Of a stretch of DNA of 64,000 nt, positions 6,509 through 17,551 are shown piece after piece (position 1 is the first letter of the stretch; each line of letters starts with the position of its first letter). Position numbers and translations under genes: made by a program. Origin of the DNA: Linnemannia hyalina (lineage: Eukaryota; Mortierellomycota; Mortierellomycetes; Mortierellales; Mortierellaceae); NCBI GenBank assembly GCA_019671135.1, contig JAHRHY010000001.1, forward strand, positions 930,001-994,000, given 5' to 3'. Below the pieces are notes generated by a model. That model did not search any database. It worked only from the letters and a program-made list of their open reading frames with translations, and was not told the DNA's origin.

Positions 6509-8831
6509 CTAAGATTGGCTACTGTTGTTGTTGGATCGGCGGCCAAAGCGTCTCGACGATGCCGAAGAAGTGCCTGATGCCGAGGATAGGTTTCCGTTCT
6601 CGATGCGAAGGTTGGGCGAGACCAGGCGGATCTGGGCTCCATCGCGTTCCATATCATCATCACCTCCTGCAGTGCTGGCCAGGAGCAGGCAGGGCAAGCA
6701 ACATCCCGAGCAGCACAACAGGATGGAGAGGACAATGAAGACGGGAATCAAGACATGCGACACGGCATAAGCATGGCCGTCCAATCTTGCTGCCAAAAGT
6801 CCGATCAGAGCGTACGAGAGAGATCCTACAATCGCAAAGACTACGCCTCCAGCGACCATGAGCGACTGTCCCTGCTGCTTCATTTCGAGGTTCTGCATCT
6901 GAGAGAAGGTCCTGTATCCAATGATGATCTGGAGAAGGTACTTGATGCCGACCAAGTACAGGGGGATAAAGACGACGCCCCAGGAGCAAGTGATCTTGTC
7001 GTCGATGCGGAGCATAATCAAAACTGCCTGAACAATTCGGATCACATTCCACCAGAGCGATGAGAACACAATCGTCAATTTGCCCTTGCCAGTGACATCA
7101 GCCTGTCCAGCGACCTTGAGGGCCATGAAGGTGTAGAGGAGAGACGAGAGTAACATGATCGCCTCCAGAACAAAGTAAGGTGCAAAAATAGCTGGCCCCG
7201 AGATGCTGGAAGTGTCGTTGGCTCTCTTGACGATCAAGACCTGGAATGCGGTCAACAGGGCAACAATGAACAAGGAAAATAGGCCTCCCCTGACCTTGGC
7301 GCTCTTCTTCTCCTTCAGCTTTTGAGCCTTGCGCTCATCCTGACTGCCTCCTCTCGATGCGCCATCCTCGTTATCCTCGTGGTCCTCGTCATCGTCATCG
7401 TCCGATTCGACTGGTCGAAGAAGCTGACTGATGACCATAAAGGCCAGAGTTGCATCCAGAATCCAGAGAGGAATAAAGACGACCGAGTAGTTCCAGTTGA
7501 CTTTGCCGTCGACCCGCACAGTCAAGAAGCTGAAGAAGATAATGGCGAGAACGAAAATAATCGAGGCAGCAAGGAAGAGCGAGCAAAGAAGACTCTCGAT
7601 CTCAATCAACTGTGCTCCGATCTCTGTGCCTGCCATCTGTACTCCCATCATGCCGTATTTGTCGTAAACCTGGCGTTTCTTGGGATCGCCTATAAAAGAA
7701 TGAATTGGTACATCATGCTCATAGAGGTTAGTCAACTCGTCGTATCAACAATGGTACTTGGTTTACTACTGTTGTTGATGCTGTCGGAGACGACACATGT
7801 AACTGGTGCAAGTAAAATAGATTGAAAGTGCTCTCGAACAACACCAAAACAAAATAAGAGTCCTAAGAGAGCATCCTCAATTAACAACAGCAAAAGCAGA
7901 CAAAACAAACATCCGACATGCCATATCCAGCAAGAGTTCATCTTTCTTCCTCATATTTCTCTCTCTGTCTGTTTGTCTTCCATGTGTCCATCGTGTCCAT
8001 CCCGAGTATCCCGCAGTGTGTCGTTGTCGATTTCAAATATTCAGTCGAAAAATATTGCCTCTCCTGAAGATTGAATGTGAAGGCTGTTGCTGGATGATGA
8101 CACAAGGCAAAGCAAGGCAAGGCAAGGCAAGGCAAGGGCGTAGAACATACTCAGGACTTCATAGGCTGCGGCGATATCTCGGAACTAGAAAGTGAAAATA
8201 GGCGGATCAACCAACGGAATCCAAAATGGTTAGAAACATGACGATAAAAAAAAGCCTGGGGTTCAGGCTGGCCAGGAGACGGACTGTCGAATGTTGTCAT
8301 TCTTCGAACAATGAACACAGTTGTAAAGAAACGACAAGAAAATAATACGAGGAAGACCGAGTATCTACAGTCATCCATGGCTGTTAGACCCTAACTTACT
8401 CTTGTTTCATGGTCTGGCACCTCGGCGACGTTGACCTTGTCAGGGTGATATCTCAGAGCCAACCGTCTAAGCAAAGGAAGTCAAAGAAAAAAAATTGTTG
8501 CGCCGTCCAGTCAGTTGATGTTATTTTTGAAGGCAACAGTGAGTGGAATTGAGTCATTCCTGGAATTCCGATTCGATCGATGTTGCTGTTGGTTTGTTGT
8601 CACAGTTGGCAAAGTCCAGTCTTTCTTCGAATGTGAATGTGAGGCGGCAAGGGATCCAGTGTGTCTGACGATATAAAAAAAGTGGGGCGAGCTGTTCGTT
8701 GGTTGGAGAGCTGAGGTTTGCTGGAGGTAAGAATGGCAAGTGTAGTACCTGTATGCCTTTTTGATTTCGTCCTGGGTGGCGGTCTTTGGCACCCCCAGTG
8801 CCTCGTACAGGTGGACGGTGTTGCGATCCAT
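6509..8831 (-). CDS. J-domain protein fused to a TMEM185-like multispanning membrane region
   Basis: Four exons (8831-8749, 8466-8400, 8184-8151, 7689-6509) join in phase to 454 residues. Residues 1-about 72 are a J domain: YEALGVPKTATQDEIKKAYR, then HPD at 35-37 (the Hsp70-stimulating tripeptide), FRDIAAAYEVL, and the terminal DPKKRQVYDKYG. The split HPD region is what fixes the small exons. The remainder carries about eight hydrophobic segments, an acidic Asp-rich loop and a Lys/Glu-rich loop, and resembles the TMEM185/FAM11 family (Pfam Tmemb_185A). The C-tail is Ser/Arg/Asn-rich. A likely role is recruiting an Hsp70 to an endomembrane such as the ER, with the J domain on the cytosolic side; this is inferred. 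The start is the first ATG before the J-domain helix. The intron between the last two exons carries an AAGGC repeat. Confidence 0.9.
8104..8137 (+). repeat. (CAAGG)n microsatellite in an intron
   Basis: About seven pentanucleotide units, the second imperfect, lie inside the last intron of the J-domain/TMEM185-like gene, close to its donor side. Confidence 0.9.
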
Positions 8832-9464
8832 CCTGTGTGAATGAGTGGTTGTTGCGGGGAGGAAGGAAGAAAGAGAGAGTGCAAAGTGTTTTGCTGTTGG
8901 TTGGTGGTTGGTGATGTGTGAGTTCACAGAGAGAAAATTGAAAAAGGGTAAAAAAAAAGGGCGGGATAAATTGCGTGCAAGGGGTGAGTGGATTGAAAGA
9001 AGGAGAGAGGAGAAAGGAAAATTCGGCACAGTGCGAGGGCGTGAATAAAAACGGAGATGGAGAGAGAGAGAAGGAAGGGCAGGTGAAAGGGGGTTAAAGA
9101 GAAATAAAAGAGTCGTTGATGTCGTTGTCGTTGTAGTTGTCGTTGATGTTGATGTGATTGTTGATGAGAGAAAAGTGAGTGTGGAAGGGGGGATGAGAGA
9201 GAGAGTGAGTGAGAGAACCAAAGAAGTGAAAAAAAGAGCGTTGGAGAGAAACATTATCCCCTAGTTTGTTTGTGGTGCAAATTTGCACATTTTTTTCGAT
9301 TTATCCAGGTTTCCAATAAAACGGGTTAGAAGACTACGTCGTGGGAGTGTCCTTGTCGTCTTCGTCACATTACATCACTCTCGAATTCAGCTCTTTTTTT
9401 CTCATCATCATCCCGCAACCCATTACCTTTTTTTTCTCACACATCGACTTCACCCTACTCACTC
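8832..9464. other. intergenic: leader of the J-domain gene and left flank of the mobile island
   Basis: On the minus strand this is a pyrimidine-rich leader of the J-domain gene. Only low-complexity Ser/Thr/Leu frames occur. The left edge of the mobile island must lie here or just inside, but I found no clear terminal inverted repeat. A TTAA lies near 9095, which proves nothing by itself. Confidence 0.5.
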
Positions 9465-10850
9465 ATGGACTCCAGTCTCGAGTTCCTCGGTTCCTTTGAC
9501 GTTTCTGACTCTCAAGGCACCGTAGTAGCATCTGCGGAGGAGGTTGACGAGGCACAGGAGGAGGAGGAGTTGTTGTTTTCGGTCCGTTGTCGTACTCGAC
9601 CAACGCCTGGTACAGATAGCTCTGGGGACGAGGAGGAGGAGAAGGCAGGAGATGAAGGGGTGATAGATGCTTCAGCTCCACCGACAAAGAAAATCTTCTC
9701 CGACCCAGTATTGACGGATTTGGCAGACAACACTAACGCATATGCAGCATCAAAAGGAGCCGGCACAGGAGAGGGATCGCGCCAGTGGGTAAAGACCACA
9801 CCTGACGAACTGCGCACATTCCTCGGCATCATTGTCTACATGGGCGTGTTCAGGCAGAACTCTGTCTCTGAGTATTGGTCAACCTTCCCTGAATGTCCTC
9901 AACACAACATCACTACCTTCATGTCCCTCGTCCGCTTCGAACAACTGAAGCGTTTTTTTCATGTCTCCAACCCCAACGAGCCTGAGCAACATTGGTTCTC
10001 AAAAGTAGAGCCTGTGATAGATAGGTGCTTCGCTTCCTTTTCTTTTATTTAACGAAGAGAGTTACCACTCTTGCCCTCTGCTAGGCTATAAAAGCTAACT
10101 GCGACAATCGCCAGACCCACTTCAGGTTCTTACCGTGTTCTGGATGGACAATAGACCTGTCTCCATACTCTTCACCGTCCATGCCCTCAGCCTCGGCGAC
10201 AACGACTGATCCGTTGTCCAAGATCGCAGACGCCCTCGAGAGACAAGCGCCAGCGCAAAGTCAGTGCGGGCTGCTCATAAAGGACGTTCCATGGCGTTAC
10301 TTCCCATCCCAAAATCATCGATGACAACAACCACCACATGAACGGAGTCGACATTGCCGACCAGTTATGCAGCTACTATTCGACTCAGCTCAGGACTTAT
10401 CGCGCATGGGCTCCGATCTTCTTCTGATTACTGGATACAACAATCATCAATGCGTACCTTATCAACAAACTCTTCGGCTCTTCCATGCATCAAAGGGAGT
10501 TCCGATAGTTCCTGGCTAAGGATCTGATAGTGTCCGCCAAATGTCGCGACACCCCTACCTAAGTATCCCCTTATGTCTCGAAAAAATTCAAGGGACCAAA
10601 CGATGAATTACTGAACTACTCATGACTGGCTGCATCCTGTGCAGATAAAATAAACGAGAAGGCATAACACAAGCATATCCTCAACCCACCCAGCGAATCT
10701 GCTCTCTCTGCAAGGTCTTCTTTGCACCAAGAATGATTTAGGAGTATCATACGCGCCCTGAGTTTTAGAAAGGGTCCTGTGCCCGCGCCGATAGCGTTGC
10801 ATCTCAGTGTCTGTCCACTGAGGCTGAAATGCATGGGATTGGTGCGAAAG
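9465..10850 (+). pseudogene. broken piggyBac-type (DDE_Tnp_1_7) transposase
   Basis: An open frame of 195 codons encodes an acidic N-terminus and then the start of a piggyBac-like transposase: WVKTTPDELRTFLGIIVYMG, YWSTFPECPQHNITTFMSLVRFEQLKRFFHVSNP. The frame ends at 10052. The later part is recognisable only as scattered pieces: NNHHMNGVDIADQLCSYYST with RAWAPIFF and DTTIINAYLINK (about 10330-10470), where a TGA replaces the expected Trp codon between them, and a Cys-bearing stretch QRICSLCK near 10685. The central region with most catalytic aspartates cannot be traced. The copy has an internal loss, a premature end and in-frame stops, so it should be inactive. Full-length relatives are about 550-600 residues. 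It lies about 0.3 kb upstream of the FEN-Fanzor gene on the same strand. Confidence 0.82.
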
Positions 10851-11166
10851 AACCATCCTACCCCTTAATTCGCTCACCCCTAGCTCATAGCTCTGATGGT
10901 CACGGTGACTGAGTGAGCGGCTGAGGCTGAGTGAATAAAGACCACTAGCTTCTTTTTCACCGTTCTGCATCGCCTCGTGTCCCTTTCATTTAAACTGCCC
11001 CCTTCTCCCCCTTCTCCTAAACTGCCCCCCTTCTCAATTGAGCTTCAACAGACCTATGTAAGGCCGATGTTGAAAGTGATTGCGACCCGTGCTATTGAGA
11101 GAATCTATGAAATCAGACTCGCGCTAACCATCAACCTTCAATTGTGAATTACTTAGAATTACAGCA
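10851..11166. other. short gap between piggyBac remnant and FEN-Fanzor gene
   Basis: It holds a small perfect inverted repeat GTCAC-G-GTGAC near 10898-10908 and the C-rich direct repeat listed separately. No coding signal was seen beyond overlapping shadow frames. It presumably contains the promoter of the downstream gene and perhaps an element boundary. Confidence 0.4.
10991..11037 (+). repeat. 27-nt-period direct repeat, C-rich, upstream of the FEN-Fanzor gene
   Basis: TAAACTGCCCCC followed by TTCTC occurs at 10991 and again at 11018, with a C-rich spacer. It lies 130-175 bp before the start codon of the FEN-Fanzor gene and could be promoter or element-end sequence. No matching inverted copy was found on the far side. 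Confidence 0.6.
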
Positions 11167-14100
11167 ATGGGCATCACAAATCTCACCGGGTGGATCAAGG
11201 CGACAGACGGAGTGGAGGAAGATCTAACCAAGAAGAGATGTGAAGTAGATTTTGCGTCGATGTTTTTTGCGTTGGTGAACTCGCTGAGTTTCCATAAAAC
11301 AGTGCAGTTCGCTGCAAAGTCCGCCCGATGTCAATTATCTACTCACACAACAACATCGACACAGCAGGCTTCATCCGGCCCAGAGCGAGCAGCCGACGTC
11401 GATGGCGCGGGCATGTCTACTCACACAACAACATCTACACGGCAGGCTTCATCCAGCCCAAAACGAGCAGCCGACGTCGACGATGCGGACACCGCCGACA
11501 CTGCTTCCTCTAACAAACGCCTCCGACCCCTCCAAATCAGCTCCGGGTCGTCGACTCTCGTTGAAGACATGCAGCGATTGCTGGCAACACAGCCATCCCA
11601 GATTCGGTTCGACGAGAGCGGCGCTCTGACCACAATCTGCGCCCAGGAAAAGGTCATTGTAAGTACCATAAATCATACCATCTGGAGAAAGCTAAATGGA
11701 TTGTACTGATCTGGAAAAAAGTTAAATGATTCATGCTATCTGGAGAAAAGCTAAATTGCTGTGACCAAAATAATAATTCGCTGTTTCCAATAGGATTTTC
11801 GATCTGTCGGAGCCGCAATTGAGAAGATTCTCTCCTCACGATTGTCTAAGGACATTACAATGCTCCATATGGATGGTCTACGATCAATGGAGAAGGAATG
11901 GGCGCACGGCAAACGAGATCAGGCGCTGTCCAAGCAGTTGGAAACACTTGAACGAGATTACACGGAGGGCAAGCTGCACAACAAAAGACAGCTATACAAA
12001 CGCCTGAAGGCGTCGTACCGAGCACCACCGGAGGCATTGCGCGCCGTTTCGGAAGTACTGCGTCAGAGTGGATGGACGATTTGCCAATGTCTCAACCAAA
12101 GCGACACGTGCATTGCGCGGACAGTCAACAACGCTGCCGTACCCGGAGATATCCGAGTTATCACCAAGGACTCCGATCTCATGGCATTCGAGTCAATCAT
12201 GTCCGTCACCATGCCAGTCAAGAACACTTGGACTACTTTCCACAAAGATGAGCTTCTGAACGAGCATGGCCTTCCGACCCCTGTACATCTAACGCTTGCC
12301 GCTCTGGTATCGAACAACGACTACACCAACGGAGTTTTTTCCTATGGCTTGACATCCAATGTCGATACGATCCGTCAGTTCAAGATGACAGGTCTTGATG
12401 GAACGGTTGGCCAAGATCGAGTGGAGGTGGTTCGGATCTATGTTAGGCGCTACCTTGACATAATACACCAAAAGGCCCGTACAATCAAGGACTCAGCCAC
12501 CCAAAGCGCACGTCGTCGACTGCGATGCAATCCTAACCCAACGGTGAAGGCACACGACAAGGATCTGAGGAGGATCGAAACGGCCGATCGACAGCTGCGT
12601 GTAGATGTGACAGAATTCGGCCATGCTCTCAAGACATTCGTGCTTTGCGAGGAAACCACTCTGGACAACAACAGGATCAGCCCGGCGGCCGATACACACA
12701 CACGACTGATGGCCATAATTAAGGAAACAGAATTCAACAAAGCCTACAATGATTGGCGTCGCTTTTCCGCGAGTCGGACGGGATCGTTGCCGCCTGGGCT
12801 GCTAGTAGATCCAGCTTCTCAGGGGGCGGCGACAGACGCAGAGGCAACGCCACCACCACTCCCAACGGCACCCAAGGCAGGATCAGCACCATATCCGCAA
12901 GCTACATCAGCGGGATCACCTTCCATCAGGCAGACGCATGGCCCAGCCGAACATCCACCATCGCACAAGCAAAAGATTAAAAAACAACGCCGACATGGTT
13001 CACGTGCCCTCCAGCGGCGACGACAGAAGTGGCGTCGTTCCAGGTATGTCTTTTCTCCTGGTATTTTTCTCCGCCTTGTCCAGCTATATACATATATTTC
13101 CACCTTAACACAACTCATTGCAAAATCGCATCTAGATTCCGCTCGCGCACAGACGTGCAAGATCGCTATGTGCCGAACACTGTTTTCCTAGAAAAGGCCA
13201 GCCCTGTTGATGTCGTGGAACTTTCAGGATTGAAGCCGTCGACCCCCCGTCCTTCAAAGCCCAAGGAGCAATCCCCCCGTATCAACCAAGTGCCTGCCCC
13301 CGCTGCCAAGAAGAAAAAGAAAAAACTCCTTGGCGAACCTAAAGGAATAGCTGGACCCAAGGCCTTGAAGAGAGCGTTCCAGTCTGTTTTCGCAACGGTC
13401 ACGCTCACGACTGGATCCCTGCAAGGCTGCCTAGGAAGATCAACCAATCTGTCGAAAGCAGAGGTTGCGCAGCTAACCCAACACGTGAGTTCGGCAGTCT
13501 CTACCGTCAATAGCGCCAAACACATTGTGTACAAGCTTATCGAGATGCGCATTCTACAGCCGCTGATCGAGACTGGACTGAACCAGGCAGAGGATGGACC
13601 GGACGAGAGCTTCCTGGAGAAGATCCTGGATTCCGATTGGGCGGAAAGGTTTGTCCAAAACCTACTGTCCTTCGTCTTGAGGAATTCCATTGTCCCCCAA
13701 GGACGTCCACCCGCGTCGGACAAGAGCAAGGATGCTGTCGCTGAAGCAATCTCGACGTTTAACGAGTTCAAGAAGACGCTGTGCCCAGGGTTCAAAGCCC
13801 TCAACTCAACGGATCTGGCTTTGAGTAATATCATCGCGGAACTTGCACCCAAGATCTGCCTAGATCAAAAACTGCATTACAGGAGAATACCGGAGACTCT
13901 TAGAACAAAGGTACCATCTATCCATATCCATTCAGTTTGTCAAATATTTTCAATGGGGTGTAAAACATATATTAACACTCCTTTTGTTTATGCAATGCCA
14001 GCTCTCCAAGCTGTCCATTGATTGCGATGGTCTTCCTGAAATAGATCAAGATGACACCGACGCTGGTGGTGATGCCGGGGCTGCTGACGTTAACGAGGGT

Positions 14101-15808
14101 GTGGACGACGACGACGCCCTCAAGCGATCCAAGAAGATCATTTTCAAGCCGGGTCATATTCAACTCTGCTGGCGATATTTCCTCCTCTTATCATCATCCA
14201 AGCGGCCCCGGTTCTGCACCCAGGCCAAAATGAGCGATTCCTTCATCGACATCAACGAGGAAGCGTTGGTTGCGCTTCTCTGGGGAGAGAAGGCAGCTCA
14301 GTTGGACAACGTATGGGAGGACACCCGCTACACTCACAACTGGGCAGCGGCAAAACAGCGTTCTTCGTACGGAGAGGTGATCAAAGAACTATTCATCGGT
14401 GACCGAGATGTCATCAAGGAAGCCAGGAATAAGCAGCAGACGACATACGGGAAGAGGACAACAACCATGGCTGAGCGTGAGGAGGCCCATCCACACATCT
14501 ACGGACAGTTAGAGCTCGCACGGTATTTGACGAATAAGGTCAATTTTTTCCGAGAACGGCACAACGCCTCCCTCACGGCCCCGACACCACCGTTGCCATC
14601 ATCAACGTCATCGTCATCGACGACCTCCACCCCACCGCCTCTTCCCACCCCACGTCAGCAGCCGCGTTCTTACCGCTACGCCCTCAACAACTATATCAGG
14701 ACGGATGGCCACCAGCTGCAGATTCTCGCGTATGACCTTACAAAACCCCGCCAATCCCCAAATTACAGTGAGTTTCTTTCTAGGATCGAGAAGCTTTATC
14801 CAACGCGGCAGCATCTTATCGACGCGTTTGGCGACGACCTGGATTCAGTCATTGTCGTCGGTATTGATCCCGGAGAGGTAGTGAGTGGTGCATTTTGTTT
14901 GACACTTCCCGGTGGAAAAGTCATCAATCTGCTGATCAAGAGGGCCTCCCTATACCAGCCTACTCTGGCCTTCCGAGATTGGGAACAGCATTGGAAAAGG
15001 CGACACCCAACAGCTGGTCCAGGCGATGTTGTCGACTCATCCCTTTGGACACGGATTACCGACCTGGACAAGCTCACCACTCTCCCGTCTGTCCACGACC
15101 TAGAGAATTCTCTCCCTCAACGAACTACGACACCTCGTTGGATGCTTTGACGGCAGCTCACAAGAAGTACTACGAGCAGGAACCGCTGATCCACGGGATT
15201 TACGCGTCAAGAGAATGGAAGGTAGCGGTTCACGAGCACAGAATGGCGAAAATGTCGGAGTTGGATCTGGCCGTCGCTGGCGTTTTGCGGATGGTGGATG
15301 AGGCATGTGAGGGCGTACCCGTCCACCAAAGAAAAGTTTTTTTTGCCCTGGGGAATGGAACCTTCCGGTCTGGCTTTAATCTCTCTTCGGTGCACACCAC
15401 GTTTCTCAGACGTCTTTTACAGCAGGTACGAAAGGCAAAAAAAAATTGTGAAAGGCATGGTTGTATCTTTTTGTCTTGATTGTGTGCACTCATGATGCCA
15501 TGGCAAATCTATGGAACACAATTTTATTATTCCTGCACCGATAGAGTGCTGCGCTCGGATACAAGGCTGCCCTGGTCGACGAGTATCTTACTTCCACCAT
15601 GTGTCCAACATGTGTGGTTGAGAACCGAGCCACCCGCCTCGCCAAGCCGTCGATGAGGACATGCGCCTGTGTTGAGTGCACTCGGTGGATTCACCGAGAT
15701 GGAGTGGGGGCGCACAACATCGCTTTGATCGGAGAACAGTACCTCAAGTCTCTAGGACGGCCCGAGCCCCTTGCAAGACCCCCAAACAAACCTAACCTCT
15801 ATAGATAG
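11167..15808 (+). CDS. FEN1/XPG-like nuclease fused to a Fanzor (TnpB-like RuvC nuclease); probable 1-nt frameshift
   Basis: Five exons (11167-11658, 11794-13043, 13136-13910, 14002-15425, 15545-15808) keep phase at every junction, giving about 1401 residues if one frameshift is allowed. The N-terminal half reads as a 5'-nuclease of the FEN/XPG superfamily. It has MGITNLTGWIK at the start (free MG end), EVDFASMFFAL, HMDGLRSMEKE, GWTICQCLNQSDTCIA, ITKDSDLMAF and the helix-hairpin-like LVSNNDYTNGV. A Pro/Lys-rich linker follows (about 13200-13330), then helical Fanzor-like N-terminal sequence. The C-terminal half has RuvC-I VVGIDPGEV (Asp codon 14866), a RuvC-II-like FFALGNGTFRSGF, VDEYLTS, a zinc ribbon CPTC...CACVEC and RuvC-III IHRDGVGAHNIA (Asp codon 15698). 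Near 15115-15124 the frame shifts by one base inside a conserved run (ENSLP, then STNYD). Fanzors are RNA-guided DNA endonucleases carried by eukaryotic transposons; joint action with a FEN domain is my inference. Confidence 0.8.
11341..11485 (+). repeat. 78-nt in-frame tandem duplication in exon 1 of the FEN-Fanzor gene
   Basis: Two copies with a 78-nt (26-codon) period start at 11341 and 11419. Both encode THTTTST-[QR]-QASS-x-P-[EK]-RAADVD and differ by a few substitutions. They lie in a low-complexity insertion between the first and second conserved blocks of the FEN-like domain, so the duplication adds linker rather than catalytic sequence. Confidence 0.9.
11681..11767 (+). repeat. three 29-nt degenerate tandem repeats in intron 1 of the FEN-Fanzor gene
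   Basis: TCTGGAGAAAGCTAAAT-like units begin at 11681, 11710 and 11739, and fill most of the 135-nt intron. A structural or splicing role is possible. A relic of an older insertion is equally so. Confidence 0.75.
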
Positions 15809-15850
15809 AAACTATAGTTTACATTATCCCCTTCTACGGATTAAGGGATA
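15809..15850 (+). other. palindrome and hairpin just after the Fanzor stop; candidate guide-RNA or element-end structure
   Basis: Starting at the base after the stop is a perfect 12-nt palindrome AAACTATAGTTT (15809-15820). It is followed by a stem TATCCC...GGGATA (15825-15830 with 15845-15850, extended by TT/AA after a one-base bulge) around a nine-base loop. In described TnpB and Fanzor loci the guide (omega) RNA lies at or beyond the 3' end of the nuclease gene and reaches the element end. Position and structure fit that pattern, but this is inference from one copy. Confidence 0.35.
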
Positions 15851-16458: not shown

Positions 16459-17551
16459 ATGTCCACTGTCGATCTATCAAAGGCCCTCGGCTACAAAAGT
16501 CCTCCAACAAAGGTCGTCTTCAATACCCGCGACTACCTCCTCTACGCCCTCTCCATCGGCATCCACTCCGAAGAACTCCAATTCCTCTACGAGAACCACC
16601 CCCAATTCGCCGCCTTCCCCACCTACCCCCTCGTCCTAGCATTCAAACGAGACAACAACGGCGTCTCAGTCTACGACGGAGCCGGATCAGATGCCATCCC
16701 GGGCATTCCACCCTTTGACCCCAATACTGTCGTTCATGGTGAACAGTCCTTGGAGGTTCATCGCCCTTTGCCGGTGGAGGGCGCGGAGGGGTTTGAGTTG
16801 CAGAGTACGGTGACAGGGGTGTACGATAAGGGGAAGGGGATGGTCATCGAACGAACAGCTCAGTTGGTTGATCCGAAGGATGTTTCGAGACCCTATGCGA
16901 CGATGATGGGGTCTGCGTTTGTGAGAGGGAGTGGTGGATGGGGAGGACCGCGTGGACCTGCGGATAGTGCTTCTGGTGGGAAGAAATCAGAGTCGTTGGA
17001 TCCTCCTAAGGATAGAACCCCTGACCGTGTCTCTGAGGACTCGACACATGCTGACCAGGCCATCCTCTACCGTCTCTCTGGGTAAATCCTTGTTGTCCCT
17101 TTGTTTCTCTTGTTTGCATAACCCACAAACAACGGACGGTCAAGGAATGTCCCAAATTACACCACCCTAACGTCCATAACCCTTTATCGTCCTCCAAAAC
17201 AGCGACTACAACCCGCTCCATATCGACCCCGAGATTGCCCCAATGGTGGGACTTGAACGCCCGATCCTCCACGGTCTCTGCACTTACGGTCACTCAGCCC
17301 ACGCAATCCTCAAAACGTACGGAGGATCTGACCCGCGCGCTTTCAAGTCCATCACGGGTCGTTTCTCGGCCCCTGTCCTCCCTGGTGACACCCTTGTCAC
17401 CAAGATGTGGAACGTTCCTACTACTCCTGAGAACAAAGGGCAGACAAGGATCCTCTTCCAGACATACGCCAAAGAGCGGAACCTGCTTGTCATCCACAGT
17501 GGATGTGTCATCCTCCAGGACCCTTCACCCCAGACACACAGCAAGTTATGA
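16459..17551 (+). CDS. peroxisomal MaoC-type enoyl-CoA hydratase 2
   Basis: Two exons (16459-17081, 17203-17551), joined within a Gly codon, encode 323 residues. The protein has the double hot-dog layout of eukaryotic (R)-specific 2-enoyl-CoA hydratases, the same fold as the C-terminal part of the Fox2/MFE-2 multifunctional protein. The second half holds the hydratase-2 motif YRLSGDYNPLHIDPEIA, with Asp209 and His214 as the expected catalytic pair, then GLERPILHGLCTYG. The last three residues are SKL, a canonical PTS1 signal, so peroxisomal import is expected. The role would be hydration of trans-2-enoyl-CoA in beta-oxidation. A stand-alone hydratase without the dehydrogenase domains may serve special substrates; that is inference. 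Its stop is 58 bp from the stop of the convergent dienelactone hydrolase gene, which also ends in SKL. Confidence 0.92.

Follow-up and report, generated by a model that had tools for sequence, protein, structure and literature searches.

The 64 kb window analysed here, which is the whole stretch C1:930001-994000 of the Linnemannia hyalina genome (51.5 Mb, 50 contigs), carries as the main gene of its locus a single reading frame that unites a 5' nuclease of the EXO1/FEN1 type with a Fanzor, and the family of each half can be assigned. The gene consists of five exons on the plus strand. Exon 1 (11167..11658) begins with MGI, the start of the EXO1/FEN-like half, whose counterpart of Asp30 is encoded at 11248-11250, and continues into a low-complexity insert, while exon 2 (11794..13043) holds the EXO1/FEN-like core and the start of a linker. 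The remaining linker lies in exon 3 (13136..13910), in which the N-terminal part of the Fanzor starts at about 13360. Exon 4 (14002..15425) encodes the Fanzor body with the RuvC-I motif GIDPGE (Asp 14866-14868), and exon 5 (15545..15808) a zinc ribbon with four cysteines (TSTMCPTC at 15590) as well as an RD motif (WIHRD at 15686).

The reading frame and its sister copies

The segments 11167-11658, 11794-13043, 13136-13910 and 14002-15150 are joined by GT-AG introns in a single frame, stop-free until a frameshift in exon 4. An earlier note on this DNA had proposed such a single-frame fusion with one frameshift in the Fanzor part. Both proposals are borne out, exons 1-4 being in frame with the zinc ribbon following in exon 5, and the frameshift being a one-base deletion (C run at about 15114-15116) which is present in the window copy and missing from other copies. 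One of these, on C5, contains the same gene as 1,397 codons in five exons. Among the 10 sister copies assembled from fetched pieces, three (C5, C6 and C44a) are open over the entire fusion, with neither stop nor indel and with GT-AG at each of the four introns, and the other seven are disrupted by stops, deletions or a lost donor. Across the frameshift region, seven sister copies show a stop-free open frame of 538 codons and C11 the same frame with one TAG. The window copy has another one-base difference before the stop, its last codons differing from those of C5 and ending a few codons later. A Fanzor start near 14230, considered in the earlier note, does not hold, and an independent Fanzor gene beginning there is ruled out, since conserved Fanzor sequence and fold already start at about 13360 and the linker upstream is conserved.

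Identity of the two halves

The assignment of the halves to the FEN1/XPG-type nucleases and to the Fanzors, as the earlier note had it, is supported by folds, by retained residues and by the zinc ribbon. For the Fanzor half, the GIDPGE of RuvC-I contains the DPG described as a Fanzor signature in the available text of PMC10711439, and TSTMCPTC...C..C...HRD conforms to the Fanzor1 motif, a [TS][TS]xx-C4 zinc finger followed by RD, as given in the accessible part of PMC3627910. The zinc ribbon in exon 5 matches PF07282 (E 1e-7; 32.4 bits against a cut-off of 26.3). The body has a Fanzor fold, Fanzor1 being the top structural match of this half. In the homologue P0003 the Fanzor-like fold begins at residue 664, and the ALKRSF at 659 corresponds to ALKRAF in the window (residue 657, base 13362). 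The full-length structure prediction of P0003 is poor (mean predicted local distance difference test score, pLDDT, 46.6); only Fanzor structures stand out among its matches, the next being helical look-alikes, and no FEN structure occurs among the best 50.

The nuclease half is a relative within the EXO1/FEN/XPG superfamily, without any claim that it is EXO1 or FEN1. It has the fold of the superfamily, and of the solved structures EXO1 comes closest to it; the prediction for P0013, a FEN half alone, gave a usable model (mean pLDDT 71.9). Searches with alignment profiles also found EXO1/XPG (A4, E 3.4e-7; A1, 4.6e-4), with weak matches for A3 and A5 (best E 0.014 and 0.037, respectively). According to the accessible part of PMC7993637, the catalytic pocket of EXO1 is formed by Gly2, Asp30, Asp78, Asp152, Asp171 and Asp173, with Lys85 and Arg92 also catalytic. 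The window gene keeps equivalents of Gly2 and Asp30 in exon 1 and, in exon 2 on the plus strand, of Asp78 (11872), Lys85 (11893), Arg92 (11914), Asp152 (12103), Asp171 (12169), Asp173 (12175) and Asp225 (12319). The last of these we take to be a catalytic residue of EXO1 as well, a D225A mutant appearing in a structure title. In alignment A6, whose eight rows are families A (that of the window), B, C, D, F and I, P0026 (family E) and P0005, with P0007-P0010 not included, the invariant columns are D27, G28, K34, R41, C99, D104, D126, S127, D128, N175, D176, Y177 and A278. Placed on the EXO1 alignment, these include Asp78-Gly, Lys85 (Asp78+7), Arg92 (Asp78+14), Asp152, Asp171, Asp173 and Asp225. 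The F-type nuclease comes close to the curated XPG_I model (E 8.9e-5; 23.3 bits against a cut-off of 24.9), and three F-type loci exceed the cut-off in the genome search. For family I, a single-sequence phmmer search of the PDB returned nothing and Pfam scans of the open reading frame (ORF) gave no match in the nuclease half, which was recognised by its matches to F-type FENs and by the invariant residues. A working metal site is expected from the retained residues, with some doubt for this subfamily.

Recurrence of the fusion in the genome and in relatives

In the L. hyalina genome, 84 merged FEN-like matches and 91 Fanzor zinc ribbons form 62 paired loci, the counts of matches being lower bounds because only the best candidates were scored in the genome search. 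At 62 of the 91 zinc-ribbon loci the same strand has a FEN-like match at a distance of 1.3-3.9 kb upstream, where chance would give about 0.005 per locus; as a control, a FEN match within 6 kb was found downstream on the same strand at 3/91 and on the other strand at 2/91. A protein search with the fusion yielded 12 proteins, by their given names from Linnemannia, Dissophora, Entomortierella and Podila, and the species looked up belong to the Mortierellaceae. Beyond L. hyalina, near full-length fusions are seen in P0004 (Linnemannia gamsii; 51% identity, 97% covered) and in P0005 and P0007 (Entomortierella parvispora; 49 and 44% identity, both 100% covered). A one-off accident or an assembly error is ruled out by the 62 loci together with the other genera. 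The earlier note had asked whether the fusion recurs, and had named homologues whose halves are never adjacent as evidence that would speak against it; adjacency is instead what the genome and the relatives display.

The joint between the halves is itself conserved. The linker around the junction is identical at 142/180 positions to P0003 and at 71/160 to P0005, and removal of the intron between the halves keeps the frame both in family A and in four public models (P0003, P0004, P0005 and P0006). P0026 contains the FEN half and the Fanzor N-terminus within one gene model. In family I (C23) no stop interrupts the frame that runs from the FEN half through the Fanzor body to RuvC-I, which measures 1,398 codons stop-to-stop (1,380 from an MGI start), and the zinc ribbon, its only Pfam match, follows in a short frame downstream. 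For the F-type gene L086, a feasibility check on the sequence found that a one-frame reading is possible by way of four introns with plausible GT-AG pairs. Over these families the identity of the FEN half to that of the window drops to 24% (F) and 22% (I). The L. hyalina public models P0001 and P0002 are both named PiggyBac transposable element-derived; in P0001 the first exon of a transposase is joined to the FEN-Fanzor exons and the FEN start exon is skipped, so that the model is either mispredicted or derived from a transcript that reads through.

Two of the 29 Fanzor zinc-ribbon loci without a FEN match were inspected. L087 is relic-like, with no Fanzor body in the fetched stretch, and L088 looks disrupted; a local search of both with the FEN profile (7 profile rows effective) gave no match. 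In L088 a transposase-like ORF of about 440 codons (398-1717) occupies the expected place of the 5' part of the Fanzor gene, and has a SWIM-like CxC..C.H pattern.

The transposon and its piggyBac-like transposase

The fusion is the second gene of a 6.6 kb DNA transposon, family A (9255..15850, plus strand), a context which the earlier note missed while its fusion stands. The element has the ends TATCCCC...AAGGGATA (GGGATA), is flanked by TA, and was delimited by alignment of copies with unique flanks; at least 12 copies exist, about 99% identical. The left end (9255..9295, plus strand) reads TATCCCCTAG and is followed by a short inverted-repeat sequence. On the left (window 8900-11150 compared), similarity to the young sister copies starts no earlier than 9251-9254, and on the right it is lost beyond AAGGGATA at 15850, each copy having its own flanks. 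The base before the left TA is T in 12/12 young copies and A, G, C and A in four older related copies, and the right end is followed by G in eight, by A in two and by T in one of the 11 copies with that end intact. The TTAA duplication of piggyBac was not found at these 12 left and 11 right ends: on the left T precedes TA, and on the right TA is succeeded by G, A or T. The end sequences agree with a TA duplication, a TA shared within the element being the alternative.

The first gene encodes a piggyBac-like transposase. Its 5' part (9330..10052, plus strand) matches DDE_Tnp_1_7 (PF13843) over profile positions 8-115 of 349 (E 2e-20), and a 3' remnant (10293..10457, plus strand) with one stop matches positions 294-349. 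Positions 118-293 are unmatched in 12/12 family-A copies, which thus show no complete DDE core, and family A is therefore probably mobilised in trans. In related FEN-Fanzor elements the transposase is complete, with gene order and strand unchanged, as at C4:124244-125395 (FEN at C4:127146, zinc ribbon at C4:130712). Seven of the eight F-type loci read (L096-L102; not L103) have another downstream motif, close to CTTCGGTGACGTAATT..GCGCCCATTGTCC, and the fusion is therefore probably carried by at least two kinds of transposon. Motifs of this kind also occur in the flanks of the family-A copy L040 and the family-E copy L095.

Some further observations concern the history of these elements. About 320 bp of the transposase gene (window 9694-10013) are 93-98% identical to family E and its kin (for example on C11, C4, C1, C6, C22 and C8), despite their FEN halves being just 29-35% identical to that of the window; these are mosaic elements, perhaps caused by recombination or gene conversion. 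One family-A copy has a split right end (C44:2228390-2228736 and C44:2227943-2227973), its final 31 bases lying about 400 bp off in an insertion-like arrangement. Decayed family-A-like Fanzor fragments with stops, 72-83% identical, are found at C1:300629-301164, C5:1607085-1607619, C23:2621441-2621972, C48:1494227-1494809 and C12:3162052-3162611, and several such fragments lie directly upstream of other FEN-Fanzor genes, as nested generations of elements. The neighbours of the window element are an ORF on the minus strand (8511-9260) and one on the plus strand (16459-17550), which from their translations have a DnaJ-like start and a MaoC/dehydratase-type look, respectively.

The right end as candidate omegaRNA

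Two hairpins on the plus strand close the element. The first (15799..15817; CTATAG-7-CTATAG) adjoins the stop codon and is a candidate element of an omegaRNA, and the terminal one (15825..15850; TATCC...GGGATA) constitutes the right end and is a candidate guide-proximal stem. Families A, B, C, D, E, G and H all have TATCC...GGATA right at the flank and a second inverted repeat just past the stop codon, the exact right end being established by copy comparison in A, B, C and E and read from a single locus in D, G and H. Minimum-energy folds contain the terminal hairpin in six of the seven families (not G) and the stop-codon hairpin in six of seven (not C). The stem at the stop codon differs between families, yet has 5/5 pairs in each of six, the exchange of arms giving a mean of 1.7 and a maximum of 4. 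The folding energy of the right end relative to shuffled sequences ranges, over the seven families, from z -0.18 (family A) to -3.45 (B). Conservation at synonymous sites was dropped as a sign of an omegaRNA, being raised in A versus B alone, where 19/29 codons are identical within the last 40 codons as compared to 90/270 in exon 4. The hairpins support, and do not prove, an omegaRNA, because they were chosen after inspection of the sequences and because inverted repeats at transposon ends can serve the transposase. In SpuFz1 the 3' flanking sequence functions as guide, as stated in the accessible text of PMC10432273. By analogy, the flank after 15850 is a candidate guide and T-TA a candidate target-adjacent motif.

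Proposed mechanism and alternatives

The current idea for TnpB is that it promotes retention of the transposon by cutting emptied sites. Along these lines, the fusion is predicted to cleave the DNA to which its guide RNA directs it and, as a likely second step, to resect the 5' ends, with repair restoring the transposon by copying, a prediction to which we give even weight for and against. The omegaRNA would extend from the gene's 3' end across the right end of the element, and the DNA just beyond that end would supply the guide, as is the case in SpuFz1. Family A being core-deleted, a related piggyBac-like transposase would have to excise the element in trans, and the site would reseal, leaving T-TA followed by sequence that matches the guide specified by the element's own right end. 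The Fanzor half would cleave this emptied site and the EXO1-like half would degrade the 5' ends or remove 5' flaps, by which simple end joining would be blocked and the break steered to recombination with a sister or homologous chromosome still holding the element. The net effect would be that copy number is kept, or gained, at vacated sites. The resection step is suggested by the residues of the fused nuclease domain, and RNA-guided cutting would then be coupled to end processing in one polypeptide. Still more tentatively, an entire lineage of Fanzors may combine two nucleases in one polypeptide, the RNA-guided one making the cut and a built-in EXO1-like one resecting it, by which the break would be channelled into recombination and the transposon would home into sites just vacated.

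A number of observations weigh against this reading. The homing role is borrowed from TnpB. At the Glu150 place, where an acidic residue is expected in the EXO1/FEN/XPG superfamily, families A-E have Gln (12097 in exon 2 of the window, plus strand) and only F and I have Glu (Glu-Ala-Asp), and 5' nuclease activity of this subfamily is therefore not certain. The profile search proposed in the earlier note came out divided, the zinc ribbon exceeding its cut-off and the window's nuclease half, like its homologues, falling below the curated Pfam cut-offs for XPG_N and XPG_I. The stretch in which the Asp152, Asp171 and Asp173 equivalents lie is absent from the models P0007 and P0010 and incomplete in P0008 and P0009, gaps which are likely to be gene-model errors. 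No FEN match accompanies 29/91 Fanzor zinc-ribbon loci and no zinc ribbon 22/84 FEN loci. A piggyBac-like match within 5 kb upstream is found in only 26/62 FEN-Fanzor pairs, and the link to this transposase is therefore not general. Each of the two hairpins is missing from one of the seven family folds, and family by family they are weak compared to shuffled sequences (p 0.0075-0.145; combined p 6e-4 for six families, B being left out of the stem tests as its stem equals that of A); four F-type ends gave p 0.0135-0.50 in the same test. Codon conservation at the 3' end is not raised for A versus C, D or E.

The Gln that replaces Glu150 in families A-E (P0026 included), the low similarity to the curated XPG models and the missing second metal-site aspartates of P0007 and P0010 could also mean that in this subfamily the EXO1/FEN-like half has no catalytic activity, its active site lost, and acts as a DNA-binding or end-holding module for the Fanzor. 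Loss of some catalytic residues would then be expected, whereas all nine equivalents are kept in the window gene and those of Asp78, Lys85, Arg92, Asp152, Asp171, Asp173 and Asp225 in 8/8 A6 rows. Moreover, families F and I retain Glu, and the EXO1 catalytic pocket as listed in the accessible part of PMC7993637 does not comprise Glu150, and a silent half is considered unlikely. The 5' nuclease could instead serve transposition itself and trim 5' flaps wherever the element newly inserts, a task separate from the Fanzor cut, in which case the fusion would simply hold two helpers together. The 26 paired loci accompanied by the transposase are in line with such a role, but 36/62, among them 11 family-B elements, are without such a match, and a helper bound to one transposase chemistry is not expected also in the F-type loci with their other downstream motif, which makes this explanation quite improbable. 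As the many copies with their different flanks would provide many different guides, the fusion might also act as a weapon against competitors, hitting other transposons or invading DNA which the 5' nuclease would then degrade, a possibility that we regard as very doubtful. Least probable, and very much so, are two proteins from adjacent genes or by internal initiation, with the common frame incidental: the Linnemannia elongata model P0012 (901 aa) does start past the FEN region, but P0026, which is close to it, joins FEN and Fanzor N-terminus, and the uninterrupted frame of family I, the in-frame splicing in family A and P0003-P0006, the in-frame GT-AG solutions in F and the conserved linker all argue for one polypeptide.

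Relation to known systems and significance

The window Fanzor resembles Fanzor1, as represented by SpuFz1 of Spizellomyces punctatus, in its RuvC-I DPG, its [TS][TS]xxC4 zinc ribbon followed by RD and its residence in a fungal DNA transposon, according to the accessible parts of PMC10432273 and PMC3627910. It differs in that SPu-1-1p, as described in the available text of PMC3627910, is one ORF of 633 aa, whereas the window Fanzor is preceded by about 650 residues with an EXO1/FEN-type nuclease, and in that its omegaRNA is only a candidate from sequence. In the Fanzor1 transposons of Bao and Jurka 2013 (PMC3627910, accessible part), as in the window, the Fanzor is an accessory gene and a second nuclease exists within the element. 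The viral Mariner elements of that account encode three proteins, of which two are a transposase and an endonuclease and the third is a methyltransferase or Fanzor1, whereas the window has one fused protein; none of the words FEN, XPG, flap and Mortierella is used in the main text of that paper. Compared to human EXO1, FEN1 and XPG, the nuclease half is Fanzor-fused and transposon-borne, has Gln at the Glu150 place (families A-E) and carries a long insert after the first helices. Likeness to piggyBac lies in the PF13843 domain of family A and the whole transposases upstream of related FEN-Fanzor genes, while TA at both ends, the absence of a two-sided TTAA and the unmatched catalytic core of family A set the element apart. 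Bacterial TnpB (ISDra2) shares the zinc ribbon and the RuvC family and, to our knowledge, has no attached 5' nuclease.

The literature searched, from which subscription papers, most preprints and supplements fell outside, contains no FEN/XPG-Fanzor link and no paper on a Fanzor in Mortierella, in agreement with the earlier note, to whose author no such fusion was known. We know of no other RNA-guided nuclease with a built-in 5' resection nuclease, and the present one, if real, would be the first. The biological roles of Fanzors are stated as unknown in the accessible text of PMC10432273. The maintenance in frame of an EXO1/FEN-type nuclease across very divergent Fanzor families points to a processing of ends after the cut that could steer repair, a role for whose test a single point mutant in each half would do. 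An active fusion would, in addition, be a natural design joining RNA-guided cutting to 5' resection.

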